The position numbers and the translations under genes were made by a program. From Cellulophaga sp. 20_2_10 (GTDB lineage Bacteria > Bacteroidota > Bacteroidia > Flavobacteriales > Flavobacteriaceae): a DNA stretch of 64,000 bases. Shown one piece after another: positions 55,570-62,340 of the stretch. The DNA is taken from contig NZ_JAMCOJ010000004.1 of NCBI RefSeq assembly GCF_023476645.1, forward strand, positions 310,001 to 374,000. The letters run 5' to 3'. Numbering within the stretch: the first letter of the stretch is position 1; each line of letters opens with the position of its first letter. Below the pieces are notes generated by a model. It worked only from the letters and a program-made list of their open reading frames with translations. It was not told the DNA's origin and searched no databases.

Positions 55570-55983
55570 TTAATGGGGTAATTTATCTTTTAAAACACCG
55601 TATAAAAATGTTCCTAATACAGAAAAAACAATTACAATTAAAATAGGAGCAAAGCCAGCACCTACCAAGGTAAACATAGGACCAGGACAAGCACCAGCAA
55701 GAGCCCAGCCTAAACCAAAAATAATACCACCAATTAAGTACCTGCTTACACTTTTGTTTTTAGGAATAAATTGTATTCTTTCGCCGTAAATAGATTTTAG
55801 TTTATAACGCTTAATTAATTGTACAACAACAATGCCTATTGCAAGAGCAGAGCCCATTATGCCGTACATATGAAAAGACTGAAATTGAAACATTTCGTAT
55901 ATACGAAACCACGATGCGGCTTCTGACTTAAACATTGTAATGCCAAAGAAAATTCCGATAAGTAAATATAATAGGGTTCTCAT
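55570..55983 (-). CDS. YeeE/YedE-type half transporter (DUF6691-like)
   Basis: 137 residues with four membrane segments. The key motif is LAGACPGPMFTLVGAGF with Cys99, matching the second half of TsuA/YeeE transporters, where conserved cysteines relay thiosulfate or sulfane sulfur through the membrane. It is the second of two half-size genes, 4 bases after the first; together they make up one YeeE-like unit. Import of a reduced sulfur compound is inferred from the family. Confidence 0.9.
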   Translation of the reverse strand: MRTLLYLLIGIFFGITMFKSEAASWFRIYEMFQFQSFHMYGIMGSALAIGIVVVQLIKRYKLKSIYGERIQFIPKNKSVSRYLIGGIIFGLGWALAGACPGPMFTLVGAGFAPILIVIVFSVLGTFLYGVLKDKLPH

Positions 55984-55987
55984 AGTC

Positions 55988-56545
55988 TTAAAAAATTAAA
56001 GGGAATAGTAGGTGAATCATAATTAAACCGCCAATAAAAAAACCAATTACAGCTATTAAAGATGGTAGTTGCAAGTTGCTTAGTCCAGATATTGCGTGTC
56101 CAGAAGTACAACCGCCAGCATATCTAGTTCCAAAACCAACTAGGAGTCCGCCAATAGCTAAAATTAGAACACTTTTAATATCTGTTAATGCATCTAAGCT
56201 ATATAGTTCTGTTGGTAAATACGCATTGCCTGCGCTAGAAAAACCTAGTTCTTTTAAGTCTTTTACAGTTTCAGGGTTTATATGCACTACAGCGCTATCT
56301 GATAAAAAATTTGAAGCTATAAAGCCACCAATAATAGCACCTAGAACAACAACTAAATTCCATCGTTGGGCTTTCCAATCAAACTTAAAAAAGTCAGATG
56401 TTTTATCTGCACCACAAATGGTACATAAGGTTCTAAGGTTAGAAGACATTCCAAAATTTTTACCAACCCAAAGCAATAAAAATAAGACTAAGGAAATTAG
56501 CGGGCCAGAAACATACCATGGCCAAGGTTGCATTATTGCGTTCAT
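55988..56545 (-). CDS. YeeE/YedE-type half transporter
   Basis: 185 residues with four to five membrane segments. The motif YAGGCTSGHAISGLSNL (Cys146) is that of the first half of the YeeE family. A cytoplasmic or loop segment (about 35-50) adds CTICGA, a further Cys pair. Together with the next gene it forms a split sulfur transporter (PmpAB/TsuA-like by analogy). The promoter carries a palindrome (56601-56616) shared with the MBL-rhodanese gene. Confidence 0.92.
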   Translation of the reverse strand: MNAIMQPWPWYVSGPLISLVLFLLLWVGKNFGMSSNLRTLCTICGADKTSDFFKFDWKAQRWNLVVVLGAIIGGFIASNFLSDSAVVHINPETVKDLKELGFSSAGNAYLPTELYSLDALTDIKSVLILAIGGLLVGFGTRYAGGCTSGHAISGLSNLQLPSLIAVIGFFIGGLIMIHLLFPLIF

Positions 56546-56571: not shown

Positions 56572-56579
56572 CAAAGTAA
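56572..56579 (-). promoter_or_regulatory. -7 promoter box of the YeeE/YedE operon
   Basis: TTACTTTG on the minus strand matches TAnnTTTG at 7 of 8 positions. Its centre is exactly 33 bases from the centre of the palindrome at 56601-56616. Confidence 0.55.
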
Positions 56580-56600: not shown

Positions 56601-56616
56601 AGTAACCTAGGTTACT
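56601..56616. promoter_or_regulatory. Crp/Fnr-type operator palindrome (YeeE/YedE promoter)
   Basis: AGTAACCTAGGTTACT is a perfect 16-base palindrome at about -41 of the predicted YeeE start, the class II activator position. A sister site lies at 61688-61703. It could also affect the divergent gene at 56690. Confidence 0.72.
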
Positions 56617-56689
56617 AAAGACTGTTGATTATATATTTTATATGTAAACGAGTTTAATTGTTTAGATTTACGATTCTTTAAATTATAGT

Positions 56690-57688
56690 ATGGATTCTTT
56701 AACTCAAATTGTATTAGGTGCCGCCGTTGGCGAGGCTGTTTTAGGAAGAAAAATAGGAAATAAGGCAATGCTTTATGGTGCTATTGCTGGTACAATTCCG
56801 GACTTAGATACTTTTGTTTCTTTTTTTACAGATACGGTTACCGGTTTAGAAATGCACCGTGGTTTTACTCATTCTGTTTTATTCTCTGTTTTATTTGCTC
56901 CTATTTTTGCTTGGCTGGTTACTAGATACGAAAAATACAAAGATTTTAAAGGTTGGTGTTGGCTCTTCTTTTTGGCTTTTGTAACGCATCCAATTTTAGA
57001 TGCGCATACAACTTGGGGAACCCAACTGTTTTGGCCATTAGAAAACCGATTGGCATTTAAAACCATTTTTGTAATAGATCCATTGTATACAGTTCCTTTT
57101 TTGGTGTTTTTAATTCTAACAATGTTTCAGAAAAAAGAAAGTCTAAAACGTAAAAAATACAATAGGCTTGGTTTAATAATAAGTAGTAGTTATTTACTAT
57201 TAACCTTTGTTTTAAAAGGTGCAGCTTTTTATCAATTTAAAAAACAATTAGAAGAACAAAATATAGCATACATAGAGATAGAAACTAAACCGTCTCCTTT
57301 AAATACTATATTATGGACAGCTAATGTAGAGACTGATGATGCTTATTATATAGGACATTATTCGTTTTTTGATACACAACCAATTCGATTTTCAAAATAC
57401 TATAAAAATCATATTTTAGTTGATGATTTAAAAGATAATCCTAAAATGCAGCGGATGATTGCAATTAGTAAGGGCTGGTATACTATAGATAGCTATAACG
57501 GTACTATTTATTATAACGATTTGCGTTTTGGAACATTAAGTTTAGATAACAAAGCCAACGATTTTGTTTTTAGCTATGAAATAAAAACGTATGGCAATGG
57601 TGATATTGCCTTTTATGAAAAACCAAAAAATAGGATACAAGCTAAAAAAATGTTGGCAGAATTATGGGAGCGTCTTAAAGGTAATTAA
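56690..57688 (+). CDS. membrane-bound metal-dependent hydrolase (YdjM-like)
   Basis: 332 residues. N-terminal DSLTQIVLGAAVGEAVLGRKIGNKA and the metal ligands in GTIPDLDTFVS, HRGFTHSVL and FVTHPILDAHTTWG identify the YdjM/DUF457-type family. About four membrane helices in the first 180 residues, then a soluble C-terminal domain. Substrate unknown; some relatives are LexA-regulated. It is divergent from the YeeE operon and its last 4 bases overlap the end of cydB. Confidence 0.9.
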   Translation: MDSLTQIVLGAAVGEAVLGRKIGNKAMLYGAIAGTIPDLDTFVSFFTDTVTGLEMHRGFTHSVLFSVLFAPIFAWLVTRYEKYKDFKGWCWLFFLAFVTHPILDAHTTWGTQLFWPLENRLAFKTIFVIDPLYTVPFLVFLILTMFQKKESLKRKKYNRLGLIISSSYLLLTFVLKGAAFYQFKKQLEEQNIAYIEIETKPSPLNTILWTANVETDDAYYIGHYSFFDTQPIRFSKYYKNHILVDDLKDNPKMQRMIAISKGWYTIDSYNGTIYYNDLRFGTLSLDNKANDFVFSYEIKTYGNGDIAFYEKPKNRIQAKKMLAELWERLKGN

Positions 57689-58761
57689 TGGTCTCCGTAA
57701 CCAATATCATCCATTTTTCCTTTAAACACTTTGTATTGTATAAACATATATATGGCTACTAATACAGCAGCTATGGCAAACCAATATACTCCAACACCCA
57801 AACCATAGCTATCTGCCGCTGTATTGTAAAGTGTTAAAGATGGGTTAACTGTATTTGTTGATGGCAATACTTTTGGGAAAATTGATGCCACTGTTGTCGT
57901 TATACCGCCAAAAAGAAATAGCGATGAAAAGACAAATCCGATACCATCTTTTTTAAACGATTTAACTTTAAATAACCCAAAAAGACCCGTAAAGGTTAGT
58001 ATAGGAAAAATAAATAGCCAAGGCTTATCTATAAAATTATGAAAAGGCTTGGGTTCTATAATGTGCCATACAAGAATAGAAACAATAACCAGTGCTAAGA
58101 GTACAAAATTGAGATTAAAGATTACCTTTTTTAGTTTTGTATTTAAATCAGAATTCGTTTTAAATATAATCCAATTTGCGCCGTGTATAGCTAAAGATAC
58201 CACACCAATAACACCTAATAACAGCGTAAACCAATCTATTATACCTAGCTCTTCTGCCTGTGGACTAAATGTAGTGTTCCATAAAGGTAAAAAGAAATAG
58301 TGTCCTTCGTGTGTAGATACACCATTTACTACATTACCAAGATTAACGCCTCTTACAATATTACCTAGTGCTACGCCAAAAAATAACGCTAATAATAAAC
58401 TAGCAACACCAAAAGCTTTGTCCCAAATGGTATGCCATAGTGTATTGTTTATTTGACCTCTTAATTCTAAACCAATAGCTCTAAAAATTAGCAACCATAG
58501 AATAATAATTAAGGGCAAATAAAAGCCACTAAATGATGACGCATAGAGTGTAGGGAAAGCAAAAAATAATACGCCACCTACTGCAATAAGCCATACCTCG
58601 TTTGCATCCCAAAACGGGCCAATAGCATTTGTAATTGCCTTTTTATCTTTCTCTTTTTTAGCGAAAAATAAATGTATAATTCCTGCACCAAAATCGTATC
58701 CGTCAAGGATAACGTAAATGGTTAACATTGTCATTAAAACGATATACCAAAAAAGCTCCAT
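57685..58761 (-). CDS. cydB: cytochrome bd ubiquinol oxidase subunit II
   Basis: 358 residues with about nine membrane helices. The N-terminus (MELFWYIVLMTMLTIYVILDGYDFGAG) with the conserved DGYDFGAG, and the GPFWDANEVWLIAVGG motif, are typical. It forms the bd-type quinol oxidase with CydA. It starts 2 bases after cydA. No CydX-like small frame is obvious after it. Confidence 0.96.
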   Translation of the reverse strand: MELFWYIVLMTMLTIYVILDGYDFGAGIIHLFFAKKEKDKKAITNAIGPFWDANEVWLIAVGGVLFFAFPTLYASSFSGFYLPLIIILWLLIFRAIGLELRGQINNTLWHTIWDKAFGVASLLLALFFGVALGNIVRGVNLGNVVNGVSTHEGHYFFLPLWNTTFSPQAEELGIIDWFTLLLGVIGVVSLAIHGANWIIFKTNSDLNTKLKKVIFNLNFVLLALVIVSILVWHIIEPKPFHNFIDKPWLFIFPILTFTGLFGLFKVKSFKKDGIGFVFSSLFLFGGITTTVASIFPKVLPSTNTVNPSLTLYNTAADSYGLGVGVYWFAIAAVLVAIYMFIQYKVFKGKMDDIGYGDH

Positions 58762-58763
58762 AA

Positions 58764-60095
58764 TTAGTGATTTTTAAGTTCTGGTCCTTTGTTAATTATT
58801 TTACCTGCTAACATTAAAAATAACAAGCCTAATAAAAGATACAGACCTATAAAACCTAGTAATGTAAACAAAGTATTGCCAGATGATACTGTTGGTGACG
58901 CACCTTCTGCTGTGCGCAGTAAATTATAGACTAACCAAGGTTGTCTCCCTAATTCTGCAGTATACCAACCCATAGTGTTTGCTATGTACGGAAAAGGAAG
59001 CATAAAGAGCAACGACCATAAAATCCATTTTGTAGTATATAGTTTTTTTCTGAATAATTGAACAACAGCAAAAAGAAGTAACCCTATAAAAATTGTTCCT
59101 AAACCAACCATAATATGGTACGCATAATATAAACCAGGGATGTTGGTAGGGTGTACACTTTTATCAAACTCGTTAAGACCTTTAATTTCTGCATTCCAAT
59201 CTTGGTACGTTAAAAAACTAAGGATATTAGGAACGGCAATTTTATTGTCTAATTTTTGTTCTAATATGTTAGGCTGACCAATAAGTACTATTTCTGATCC
59301 TCCATCTTCAGTTTTAAAAATACCTTCCATAGCAGCAAAAGTGGCAGGTTGGTATTTAACCACGTTTTTAGCAACTAAATCTCCGGTAGGAACAGCAACA
59401 ATAACACTGGCAAAAAAGCCAAAAATAACGCCAGTTTTTAAAAATAACTTTCCAAAATTACTGTGTTTGTTATTTAAGATGTAAAATGCACCAATGGCAG
59501 CAACAACAAAAGATGCCGTAACTAGAGAGGCAGCCTGATTGTGAAAATAAGAGGGTAGAAGCCAAGGGTTGCTAAAAAGTGCACCAAAATTGGTAAGAAC
59601 AAATTTTCCGTTTTCTAGAATTTCATAACCAACTGGGTGTTGCATCCAAGAGTGTGTGGCTATAATTAAATAACCACTTGCCCAAGAGCCCAAAAAGACT
59701 AAGAACCCAGTTAAAAAATGGAGTTTGTGACCAAGTAGTTTTTCTCCAAATAAAAACAAGCCTAAAAAGGACGACTCCAAAAAGAAAGAGAACATACCTT
59801 CCATGGCTAAAGTCTGACCAATAATGCCTCCTGTGAGCTCAGAAAATTTAGCCCAATTGGTACCAAACTGAAACTCCATAGGAATACCAGTAACAACACC
59901 CATAGCAAAGTTTAAAGCAAAGATTTTCATCCAGAACTTAGCCGCATCATTGTAAGTATCTACCTTAGTTCTTAAAAATTTCCATTTAAAGTAAACAATT
60001 AATAAGGACAAGCCCATTGTTAATTGCGGAAACAAATAATGAAATGTAATTGTAAATGCAAACTGCATTCTGTCATAAAAGAGCATATCTTCCAT
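58764..60095 (-). CDS. cydA: cytochrome bd ubiquinol oxidase subunit I
   Basis: 443 residues, the short-Q-loop form. Heme ligands are likely His19 (TITFHYLFPQ), His185 (SYFHNQAAS) and the Met in YHIMVGLG; the GWYTAELGRQPW motif is conserved. High-affinity terminal oxidase with two b-type hemes and heme d, moving electrons from quinol to oxygen; cytochrome bd resists sulfide and nitric oxide, which may matter beside sulfur genes. Promoter box at 60125-60132. Confidence 0.96.
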   Translation of the reverse strand: MEDMLFYDRMQFAFTITFHYLFPQLTMGLSLLIVYFKWKFLRTKVDTYNDAAKFWMKIFALNFAMGVVTGIPMEFQFGTNWAKFSELTGGIIGQTLAMEGMFSFFLESSFLGLFLFGEKLLGHKLHFLTGFLVFLGSWASGYLIIATHSWMQHPVGYEILENGKFVLTNFGALFSNPWLLPSYFHNQAASLVTASFVVAAIGAFYILNNKHSNFGKLFLKTGVIFGFFASVIVAVPTGDLVAKNVVKYQPATFAAMEGIFKTEDGGSEIVLIGQPNILEQKLDNKIAVPNILSFLTYQDWNAEIKGLNEFDKSVHPTNIPGLYYAYHIMVGLGTIFIGLLLFAVVQLFRKKLYTTKWILWSLLFMLPFPYIANTMGWYTAELGRQPWLVYNLLRTAEGASPTVSSGNTLFTLLGFIGLYLLLGLLFLMLAGKIINKGPELKNH

Positions 60096-60124
60096 AGCAC
60101 AATATTTAAGAATAGGATGGTTAA

Positions 60125-60132
60125 CAAAGATA
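60125..60132 (-). promoter_or_regulatory. -7 promoter box of cydAB
   Basis: TATCTTTG on the minus strand, a perfect match, 29 bases before the cydA ATG. There is no copy of the GTAAC palindrome at the corresponding upstream position. Confidence 0.52.
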
Positions 60133-60178
60133 CCGAAACAGTATCGTTTTAGATAAAAGTTTAATGGTTTTATCCTTT

Positions 60179-60215
60179 AAAAAAAGGAGTGTTTTTTAGG
60201 AACACCCCTTTTTAT
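60179..60215 (-). terminator. terminator after the MBL-rhodanese gene
   Basis: AAAAGGAGTGTT pairs with AACACCCCTTTT (one G-T pair) and ends in A/T runs. It lies 11 bases past the stop of the gene at 60226 and separates it from cydA. Confidence 0.75.
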
Positions 60216-60225
60216 AAACTAATTT

Positions 60226-61632
60226 TTACAATGTAGACGGACAAACATAATTGCTTACGGGTATACCACCTTCTTTTATGGCAACAAAGCCACCATTTAT
60301 ATTAATTAAATTATGTATTCCTCGACTTTTTAAAATAGATACAGCAATCATACTTCTATAGCCACTAGCGCAATGCACATAAAAGTTTTTATTTGTAGGA
60401 TATTGGGTTATGTAGTTGTTAATATAATCTAGGGGAGTATTAATAGCTCCTATCATATGTTCAGACAAGTATTCGCTTTCTTTTCTAACATCAAAAACTT
60501 TTATATTACTATCTAGTGCAGTCTTTAAATCTTTAACTGTTGTGGTACTAACGGTATCATAATCCTTAGCTGCTTTTTTCCAAGCAGAAAAACCACCTTT
60601 TAAAACACCCAAAGTATTATCAAACCCAACCCTAGATAATCTAGTTACTGTTTCTTCTTCTCTACCTTCTGGAGTTACAAGTATAATTGGTTGTTTAACA
60701 TCTGCAATTAATGCACCAACCCAAGGAGCAAAACTACCATCTATACCAATAAATATAGATCTAGGAATGTGCCCTTTTGCAAAGTCGTCTTGATGCCTAA
60801 CATCTAAAATTACGGCACCAGTTGTATTTGCTAATCCTTCAATCGTATCCGGATCTAACGCTATTGTTCCTCGTTTTAAAACATCAGCAATATCATCATA
60901 ACCTTCTCTGTTCATTTTTACATTTAAAGGAAAATATTGTGGTGGTGGTAATAAGCCATCGGTAACTTCTTTTATAAACTCTTCCTTAGTCATATTAGCA
61001 CGTAGGGCGTAGTTTGTTTTCTTTTGGTTGCCAAGTGTATCTACAGTTTCTTTGCTTAGGTTTTTACCACAAGCAGAACCAGCTCCGTGTGCAGGATATA
61101 CCATAACGGAATCTGCTAGAGGCATAATTTTAGTACGCAAGCTATTATACAAATAACCCGCTAAGTCTTGCGCTGTAATTTCTCCTGCCTTTTGTGCTAA
61201 ATCTGGTCTGCCAACATCTCCTAAAAATAGTGTATCACCACTAAAAATAGCGTGATCTTTACCATCCTTATCTCTTAAAAGATATGTGGTACTTTCCATA
61301 GTATGCCCTGGAGTATGTAGTGCTATTATTGTTATATTTCCTAATTTAAATTCCTGATTATCTTTAGCAATAATAGCTTTAAAAGTAGGATTTGCATTTG
61401 GCCCAAAAACAATAGGAGCATTGGTCTGTTTAGCCAAAGTTACGTGACCACTAACAAAATCTGCGTGAAAATGAGTTTCAAAAATATATTTTATAGTCGC
61501 ATTATTTTCTTTTGCTCTAGAAATATAAGGTGAAGTTTCTCTTAAAGGATCTATAATAGCAGCTTCGCCATTACTTTCTATGTAGTATGCGCCTTGTGCA
61601 AGGCAACCTGTATATATTTGTTCTATAATCAT
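60226..61632 (-). CDS. MBL-fold (persulfide dioxygenase-like) protein with two rhodanese domains
   Basis: 468 residues, cytoplasmic. Metallo-beta-lactamase domain (1-240) with THFHADFVSGH, TPGHT and SGDTLF; by analogy to ETHE1/persulfide dioxygenases the mono-iron ligands would be His54, His110 and Asp133. Two rhodanese domains follow: the first (about 265-355, ILDVRHQDDFAKGHIP) has VTPEGREEE where the catalytic loop should start with Cys, so it is inactive; the second (about 365-460) has intact HCASGYRS (Cys421). It likely handles sulfane sulfur (persulfide) to sulfite and thiosulfate. Promoter shares its palindrome with the YeeE operon. Confidence 0.93.
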   Translation of the reverse strand: MIIEQIYTGCLAQGAYYIESNGEAAIIDPLRETSPYISRAKENNATIKYIFETHFHADFVSGHVTLAKQTNAPIVFGPNANPTFKAIIAKDNQEFKLGNITIIALHTPGHTMESTTYLLRDKDGKDHAIFSGDTLFLGDVGRPDLAQKAGEITAQDLAGYLYNSLRTKIMPLADSVMVYPAHGAGSACGKNLSKETVDTLGNQKKTNYALRANMTKEEFIKEVTDGLLPPPQYFPLNVKMNREGYDDIADVLKRGTIALDPDTIEGLANTTGAVILDVRHQDDFAKGHIPRSIFIGIDGSFAPWVGALIADVKQPIILVTPEGREEETVTRLSRVGFDNTLGVLKGGFSAWKKAAKDYDTVSTTTVKDLKTALDSNIKVFDVRKESEYLSEHMIGAINTPLDYINNYITQYPTNKNFYVHCASGYRSMIAVSILKSRGIHNLININGGFVAIKEGGIPVSNYVCPSTL

Positions 61633-61658
61633 AACGTTGTAGTTTAGTATTACTACTA

Positions 61659-61666
61659 CAAAATTA
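61659..61666 (-). promoter_or_regulatory. -7 promoter box of the MBL-rhodanese gene
   Basis: TAATTTTG on the minus strand, a perfect match. Its centre is 33 bases from the centre of the palindrome at 61688-61703, the same as at the YeeE promoter. Confidence 0.62.
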
Positions 61667-61687
61667 AGTTACACTATAGTAATGTAC

Positions 61688-61703
61688 AGTAACTTAGGTT
61701 ACA
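61688..61703. promoter_or_regulatory. Crp/Fnr-type operator palindrome (MBL-rhodanese promoter)
   Basis: AGTAACTTAGGTTACA differs from the perfect palindrome at 56601-56616 at two positions. It overlaps the stop codon of the Crp/Fnr gene itself and sits at about -41 of the MBL-rhodanese promoter. Confidence 0.7.
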
Positions 61704-62340
61704 CTTTGTTTAAGTCTAGTATTTTAATATAATTTCTATGTAATTCTATGCTTCCTAGCTTTTCTAATTTTTTTAATAGTCTAGATATTACCACTCTAGA
61801 ACTATGTAGGTCATAGGCAATTTCTTGATGCGTATTTTTTAATATAGAAGTATTAGTTACTCGCACTTTCTCTTTTAAGTAATTAAGTAAGCGTTCATCC
61901 ATATTTAGAAAAGCAACACTGTCTACAGTTAGCAATAATTCGTTAATGCGGTTATGGTAACTTTCAAAAACAAAATCTCTCCAAGATTTATATTTGGCGG
62001 TCCAGATTTCCATTTTTTCTATAGGAATCATTATTAACTTAGCATCTGTCTCTGCTATGGCCCTAATTTCACTTTTCTTTTGTCCCATACAACACGCCAT
62101 TGTCATAGTACAAGTTTCTCCTTTTTCTAGATAGTAGAGAAGGAGCTCATCGCCATCTGAATCTTCCCGTAAAATTTTTATGGCACCAGAAACCAATAAT
62201 GGCATAGATTTTACGTAATCTCCGATTTCTATAAGTTGAAACCCTTCTGGAACTTCTTTATAAGTTGCTGACGCTATAATTTCTTGAAGCAATTCTTCTT
62301 CAAATAGAGTTCCGTAGCTGTTTTTTAATTCCTGAATCAT
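61699..62340 (-). CDS. Crp/Fnr family transcriptional regulator
   Basis: 213 residues from the ATG at 62340 (MIQELKNSYGTLFE). A longer frame begins at 62400, but the promoter lies inside it (box 62349-62356), so the shorter start is right. Cyclic-nucleotide-like sensor domain (1-125) with a cysteine group Cys77, Cys83 and Cys84 (ETCTMTMACCMG), then a helix-turn-helix (about 165-200, THQEIAYDLHSSRVVISRLL). No Fnr-type iron-sulfur Cys at the N-terminus. The cysteines suit a sulfur or redox signal (inference). Likely binds the palindromes at 61688 and 56601. Confidence 0.93.
   Translation of the reverse strand: MIQELKNSYGTLFEEELLQEIIASATYKEVPEGFQLIEIGDYVKSMPLLVSGAIKILREDSDGDELLLYYLEKGETCTMTMACCMGQKKSEIRAIAETDAKLIMIPIEKMEIWTAKYKSWRDFVFESYHNRINELLLTVDSVAFLNMDERLLNYLKEKVRVTNTSILKNTHQEIAYDLHSSRVVISRLLKKLEKLGSIELHRNYIKILDLNKV

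Follow-up and report, generated by a model that had tools for sequence, protein, structure and literature searches.

A palindrome at a fixed distance from the -7 box precedes flavobacterial sulfur genes and points to a Crp/Fnr-family protein as their probable activator

The window analyzed here, a stretch of 64,000 nucleotides (nt) from Cellulophaga sp. 20_2_10 (Flavobacteriaceae; contig NZ_JAMCOJ010000004.1, positions 310,001 to 374,000; host genome 4.17 Mb), carries a gene for a Crp/Fnr-family regulator, next to it a gene joining a metallo-beta-lactamase (MBL) fold to two rhodanese domains, and, 5 kb away, a split YeeE/YedE sulfur transporter. An original prediction, made from the letters alone, held that the promoters of the latter two units share a palindrome at the same distance from their -7 boxes and that the regulator activates both. 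The features concerned are listed below; transcription start sites (TSSs) are predicted from the box-to-TSS position given in the available part of PMC9723704.

56601 to 56616, no strand: operator 1, AGTAACCTAGGTTACT, core GTAAC-N4-GTTAC, centred at the predicted -41.5 of the YeeE/YedE promoter
56572 to 56579, minus strand: -7 box TTACTTTG of the YeeE/YedE promoter, 5/6 fixed positions of TAnnTTTG
56567: predicted +1 of the YeeE/YedE promoter, leader of 22 nt
55988 to 56545, minus strand: YeeE1, first half of the split YeeE/YedE sulfur transporter (Sulf_transp, PF04143)
55570 to 55983, minus strand: YeeE2, second half (DUF6691/Sulf_transp), directly 3' of YeeE1
61688 to 61703, no strand: operator 2, AGTAACTTAGGTTACA, core GTAAC-N4-GTTAC, centred at the predicted -41.5 of the MBL-rhodanese promoter
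61659 to 61666, minus strand: -7 box TAATTTTG of the MBL-rhodanese promoter
61654: predicted +1 of the MBL-rhodanese promoter, leader of 22 nt
60226 to 61632, minus strand: MBL fold and two rhodanese domains, 468 amino acids (aa), candidate CstB-like persulfide dioxygenase/sulfurtransferase (Pfam, PDB matches)
61699 to 62340, minus strand: Crp/Fnr-family regulator, open reading frame (ORF) opening at GTG 62400; C97, C103 and C104 numbered from 62400; recognition helix SSRVVISR

Re-reading the sequence bore out both palindromes, both boxes, their coordinates and the 33-base spacing: centre to centre, palindrome and -7 box are 33.0 bases apart in either promoter, and the palindrome centre lies 63.5 bases from the ATG of either gene. 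The second palindrome is perfect only within its 5-base arms, GTAAC-N4-GTTAC, which form the conserved unit. Likewise, the first box matches TAnnTTTG at five of the six fixed positions only. The regulator gene, said to lie directly upstream of the second site, is even overlapped by it, operator 2 covering the stop and last codon (gene end at 61699). Where do the palindromes stand relative to transcription? In the Flavobacterium psychrophilum transcriptome, TAnnTTTG spans -12 to -5 (PMC9723704, available part). This puts the box centre at -8.5 and a palindrome centre 33 bases upstream at -41.5, the class II position, which sharpens the predicted "near -41".

Within the host genome, GTAACYTAGGTTAC occurs only at these two places. 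The palindrome alone was rejected as a regulon marker, being too unspecific: GTAAC-N4-GTTAC is found at 14 places, 10 of them inside ORFs (one a doubtful ORF of 90 aa), and the reversed control at 6. Genome-wide specificity belongs instead to the combination, since only the window pair joins an exact palindrome to a box matching at 5/6 or better at +33. The 16-mer with three mismatches is not enriched in the window (7 matches versus 5.55 expected), so only exact matches matter, and the composite site with up to two mismatches gives 6 matches in the genome versus 12 in the reversed control. We therefore used only the three own-genome sites with zero or one mismatch, namely the window pair and one (L156, G000:C56:51322-51365) preceding a DUF983 gene, with one arm mismatch and a perfect box TATTTTTG at +33. 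The window regulator probably acts on this DUF983 gene as well. Beyond the window pair, a single one of the 14 places (L033) comes within two mismatches of a box at +33; this weaker site (box 4/6) lies before a fatty acid (FA) hydroxylase homologue and is mentioned because FA hydroxylase genes carry sites in relatives.

Could the matched geometry be a coincidence, or the product of one promoter recently duplicated within the genome? The closeness of the sites and their equal distances to the ATG would fit such an origin. The bases between palindrome and box differ by eye, however, between the two promoters; randomizing the window 200 times with a first-order Markov model gave a single copy with a palindrome and its box at +33 and no copy with two such sites; and 94 of the 149 family genomes show the same arrangement again, in front of different genes. 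We consider this explanation negligible, in keeping with the earlier judgment that chance is improbable.

Around regulator homologues, 428 loci were found; the best 80 (1.50 Mb) are the named loci below, and their regulators together with that of the window make up the 81 aligned. GTAAC-N4-GTTAC occurs 249 times in the named loci, against a mean of 1.24 and a maximum of 7 for 59 permuted-arm palindromes, and the other arm spacers from 0 to 12 give zero to three occurrences each, so that only spacer 4 is enriched. Of 498 oriented sites, 122 have an exact TAnnTTTG at +33, and every other offset from 5 to 99 has at most two. A box matching at 5/6 or better lies exactly 33 bases away in at least one direction at 231 of the 249 sites; among the 196 with a gene start on one side only, 181 have the box on that side and 3 on the other. 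Because these loci had been picked by their regulator, the test was repeated on whole genomes: GTAACN4GTTACN22TANNTTTG has 190 sites in the 94 family genomes and the reversed pattern has one, while spacers 23-42 combined yield 33 sites versus 35 in the reversed control. The pattern is real, is not due to chance and is conserved through many flavobacteria.

In a profile of 224 sites, whose arms and box are fixed by site selection, T-n-T precedes the left arm (75% and 93%), T-G follows the right arm (70% and 66%) and little else is conserved up to the box. The G after the right arm falls at -33 (66%); the operator overlaps the -33 element there, and this G is its conserved remainder. A centre at -41.5, overlap with the upstream promoter element and fixed spacing together make this a class II arrangement, on TSS positions predicted from the available part of PMC9723704. 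The same overlap would suit a repressor that covers the -33 region and is released by sulfur in the manner of SqrR and BigR, which repress (PMC12170894, available part). A repressor needs no such rigid spacing, though, and 190 sites have spacer 22 while, by hand count, 11 have spacer 23 and 22 are spread over spacers 24-42; moreover, the -33 element is degenerate, as in activator-dependent promoters, and -41.5 is the activator position of NtcA, which binds GTAN8TAC at about that point (PMC3898017, available part). We regard repression as unlikely and proceed with activation.

Which genes carry the site? Scoring palindromes that have at most one mismatch and, exactly at +33, a box matching at 5/6 or better, we found the composite upstream of 72 of 93 MBL-rhodanese cluster genes and 16 of 28 YeeE genes in the named loci, and upstream of 13 of 1004 ORFs outside 19 named families. 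The site is thus conserved in orthologous promoters, and searching related genomes for a palindrome about 33 bases from the box revealed a large conserved pattern with mostly sulfur targets. Near the regulator, the target families, named by Pfam and counted as oriented sites whose box matches at 5/6 or better, are MBL-rhodanese (57), TauE (36), YeeE (18), the regulator itself (15), DUF983 (15), an SQR-like flavin adenine dinucleotide oxidoreductase (14), rhodanese (12), peroxiredoxin (10), Tll0287-like (8), YgaP-TM, FA hydroxylase and SulP (6 each), cytochrome bd subunit I and a sulfite-oxidase-like molybdoenzyme (5 each), TolC (3), HMA (2) and eight single genes; we tentatively read PF07992 as SQR-like and PF00174/PF03404 as sulfite-oxidase-like. 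Of 20 DUF983 genes close to the regulator in relatives, 15 are preceded by palindrome and box. A second set was chosen by site and comprises 142 distinct composite sites among the matches listed (loci L125-L154 and L160-L265), including the window's own and many others still beside a regulator. There, 118 sites front families known near the regulator (BLAST), the other 24 include three without a gene call, and MBL-rhodanese (28), TauE (26) and TolC (24) lead. By annotation, sulfur genes prevail among the targets: CstB-like MBL-rhodanese, TauE, YeeE/YedE, SQR-like, sulfite-oxidase-like and SulP. The persulfide dioxygenase, sulfurtransferase, SQR or YeeE/YedE genes by which the regulon of a reactive-sulfur sensor can be recognized are present. 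In one locus (L051:14272-20186), TolC is the first gene of an operon that also holds efflux genes of HlyD and AcrB type (Pfam).

The window MBL-rhodanese protein has the CstB-type layout, an MBL followed by two rhodanese domains, according to Pfam and to near full-length matches to PDB 3tp9 (E=1.4e-69, query 3-459) and PDB 3r2u (E=5.2e-60, query 1-452), the latter being, we presume, CstB of Staphylococcus aureus. S. aureus CstB is controlled by CstR; the window gene has a Crp-type site instead. Between the two regulated units lie the cytochrome bd genes, and between these and the split YeeE/YedE pair a YdjM-like gene on the plus strand.

58764 to 60095, minus strand: cydA
57685 to 58761, minus strand: cydB

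The cytochrome bd genes (57685-60095) have no site in the window, and a composite site precedes cydA in another genome (L149); membership of cytochrome bd in the regulon therefore varies.

The regulator belongs to the Crp/Fnr superfamily (PF00027, E=1.7e-8; PF13545, E=2.7e-9; PF00325, E=1.4e-4; all above cut-off) and does not pass the curated models for CRP (53.9 bits versus a cut-off of 266), FNR (21.1 versus 228) or NtcA (44.5 versus 244.95). Residues 13-233 are 98% identical to the regulator of Cellulophaga fucicola (L045). Where does the protein begin? A length of 210 aa in 52 of the 81 aligned homologues fits a start at ATG 62340; against this start, the longer ORF is similar to the two nearest Cellulophaga loci as far out as its residues 13 and 8. 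C97 is present in all 81 aligned regulators, C103 in 77 and C104 in 76. The four that lack C103 carry SRE helices and are probably paralogues; the remaining 77 have C97 in 77, C103 in 77 and C104 in 76. The recognition helix reads SRVV[IV]SR in 77 of 81, and the aligned NtcA helix is STRVTVTR. C97 aligns opposite the Phe preceding Gly-Val-Leu of NtcA, and the aligned NtcA/CRP loop is the effector-binding loop.

Reactive sulfur appears the most likely signal for these cysteines, because the regulon consists of persulfide, sulfite and sulfide enzymes. The same site and regulator might nevertheless answer to another signal, either general thiol oxidation or oxygen or nitric oxide through a metal centre, with the sulfur genes induced indirectly. 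Peroxiredoxin, thioredoxin and cytochrome bd are among the targets, as this would lead one to expect, and two distant regulators in site-bearing genomes (G155, L268; G047, L280:2874), with SRVV-like helices, keep only the first loop cysteine. If these proteins are the readers of the sites, the cysteine pair C103/C104 is not essential everywhere. Most named targets, however, handle sulfide, persulfide, sulfite, sulfate or thiosulfate. As for a metal centre, an FNR-type cluster is ligated by four cysteines, while 72 of the 81 regulators hold exactly three and 4 hold four; on this number and the 21.1-bit score we rejected an FNR-type iron-sulfur reading. We regard another signal as a possible but less likely alternative.

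Does the site follow the regulator? Among the 149 family genomes, the composite site occurs in 94 of 131 with a regulator match at E<=1e-3 and in 0 of 18 without one (p=2e-9, shared ancestry uncorrected). With the cut at 1e-45, set by hand after the match list had been viewed, it occurs in 92 of 118 versus 2 of 31 (p=1.6e-13, shared ancestry again uncorrected). Across 198 genomes of the phylum, 17 of 69 with a match at E<=1e-30 have the site and 0 of 129 without one do (p=4e-9, likewise uncorrected for shared ancestry); the 17 comprise 11 of the family and 6 of the class. Adjacency is also conserved: of 80 cluster members, 54 have a palindrome that starts -4 to +13 from the stop of the regulator gene, 3 have it at 55-75 and 23 have none within 200. 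The regulator gene itself has palindrome and box upstream in 16 of 79. Might a different Crp-type paralogue read the palindrome, the adjoining regulator being incidental? The genome encodes a second Crp-like protein (C9:8407, L266; 34% identity), SRE-type paralogues are found in related loci, and in three distant genomes with sites the best match is of SRE or HRE type. Co-occurrence, adjacency and autoregulation all follow the adjoining regulator, though, and the host's second protein has a TREV, not an SRVV, helix; we think a paralogue very improbable as the reader. In four related loci, Crp/Fnr regulators have the first loop cysteine only and an SRE helix (L103:13973-14605, L105:15730-16368, L114:6906-7553, L115:13539-14183), with which they probably read another operator.

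Several observations weigh against the adjoining regulator as sulfur-responsive activator of these genes. Some targets are not obvious sulfur genes (the TolC-RND pump, FA hydroxylase, DUF983). The exact composite site is missing from 37 of the 131 matched family genomes (26 of 118 at E<=1e-45), and none of the 27 matched phylum genomes of other classes (E<=1e-30) has it. Conversely, G088 and G010 have a site and only a weak regulator match; in G088, a genome 87% complete, the site stands before a TolC gene. Sites are also present in G297, G245 and G305, where the regulator match retrieved carries a helix of SRE or HRE type, and in G155 and G047, where the retrieved match lacks C103 and C104, so that neither helix nor cysteine pair follows the site cleanly at a distance. 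Related genomes, moreover, are not independent.

Motif, spacing, target genes, co-occurrence and the conservation of cysteines and helix in close homologues can be read directly from these genomes, and from them we infer binding, activation and signal chemistry. How would the parts work together? As sulfide or persulfide accumulates, the loop cysteines would become modified, and the regulator dimer would bind GTAAC-N4-GTTAC centred at -41.5 and contact RNA polymerase in class II style. The promoters it would drive have a sound TAnnTTTG box and only a remnant of the -33 element. From the 3' end of its own gene the site would drive the next gene, the CstB-like MBL-rhodanese, and the other site, 5 kb away, would switch on the YeeE/YedE pair. 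Regulators of this kind would, in relatives, drive a regulon for handling sulfide, persulfide and sulfite, and sometimes their own gene. The likely signal, reactive (sulfane) sulfur, would be sensed by cysteines in the loop that holds the small-molecule ligand in CRP and NtcA. The predicted activation of both units is thus supported, and we consider it likely that the protein encoded at 61699-62340 is a class II activator of a sulfur-stress regulon, probably itself sulfur-responsive. With less assurance, though still inclined to accept it, we propose a Crp/Fnr-fold reactive-sulfur sensor whose ligand loop has turned into a three-cysteine switch, serving as class II master regulator of sulfide/persulfide detoxification and sulfur oxidation in Flavobacteriaceae and some other members of the class.

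How does this system compare with known ones? Its regulator has the domain architecture of Escherichia coli CRP and FNR, and in class II activation these occupy the same position relative to the promoter; their operators, TGTGA and TTGAT, differ from GTAAC-N4-GTTAC. NtcA is closer, sharing the Crp fold, the helix R-V-x-[VI]-x-R, the GTA-N8-TAC core inside GTAAC-N4-GTTAC and the position of about -41.5 (PMC3898017, available part). Unlike the window regulator, which has cysteines in its ligand loop and arms extended to GTAAC/GTTAC, NtcA responds to 2-oxoglutarate and nitrogen. The best solved relative is a Crp/Fnr protein, PDB 3dv8 (E=1.5e-15), with cysteines opposite C97 and C103 and an Ile opposite C104; the common C-x5-C loop hints at a cysteine-loop Crp family wider than Bacteroidota. 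In its available part, a 2025 review (PMC12170894) presents SqrR/BigR and FisR as sulfur sensors that work through cysteines, and FNR as an oxygen sensor. SqrR/BigR, CstR and FisR control genes for a persulfide dioxygenase, a YeeE/YedE-type transporter or SQR, and FisR senses through three conserved cysteines (available parts of PMC12170894 and PMC9774590). Reactive-sulfur sensors rely on conserved cysteines that can join in a di- or tetrasulfide; of the candidate cysteines here, all three are conserved in close homologues, and C103 and C104 are missing from the matches in G155 and G047. SqrR/BigR, CstR and FisR belong to the ArsR, CsoR-like and Fis families, whereas the candidate sensor here is of the Crp/Fnr family and its site belongs to a TAnnTTTG promoter.

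A Crp/Fnr sulfur regulon in Bacteroidetes did not turn up among the matches listed in the open-access literature, outside which most subscription papers lie, nor in the available parts of PMC9774590, PMC12170894 and PMC11582611. Activation by Crp-type proteins from the class II position and sulfur sensing through cysteines are each already known; their union in one Crp/Fnr protein with such a regulon is absent from these matches.

Flavobacteria make up a large share of the communities in sea and soil, and the family genomes analyzed here have many sulfide, thiosulfate and sulfite genes, whose control was absent from the open-access matches listed. Our analysis names a candidate regulator and its target genes, defines the operator precisely and fixes the promoter geometry to the single base. 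If the proposal is true, the Crp/Fnr fold would join the ArsR, CsoR-like, MarR and Fis families of sulfur sensors, and the hitherto unassigned DUF983, FA hydroxylase-like and TolC-RND pump genes would find their place in sulfur stress.

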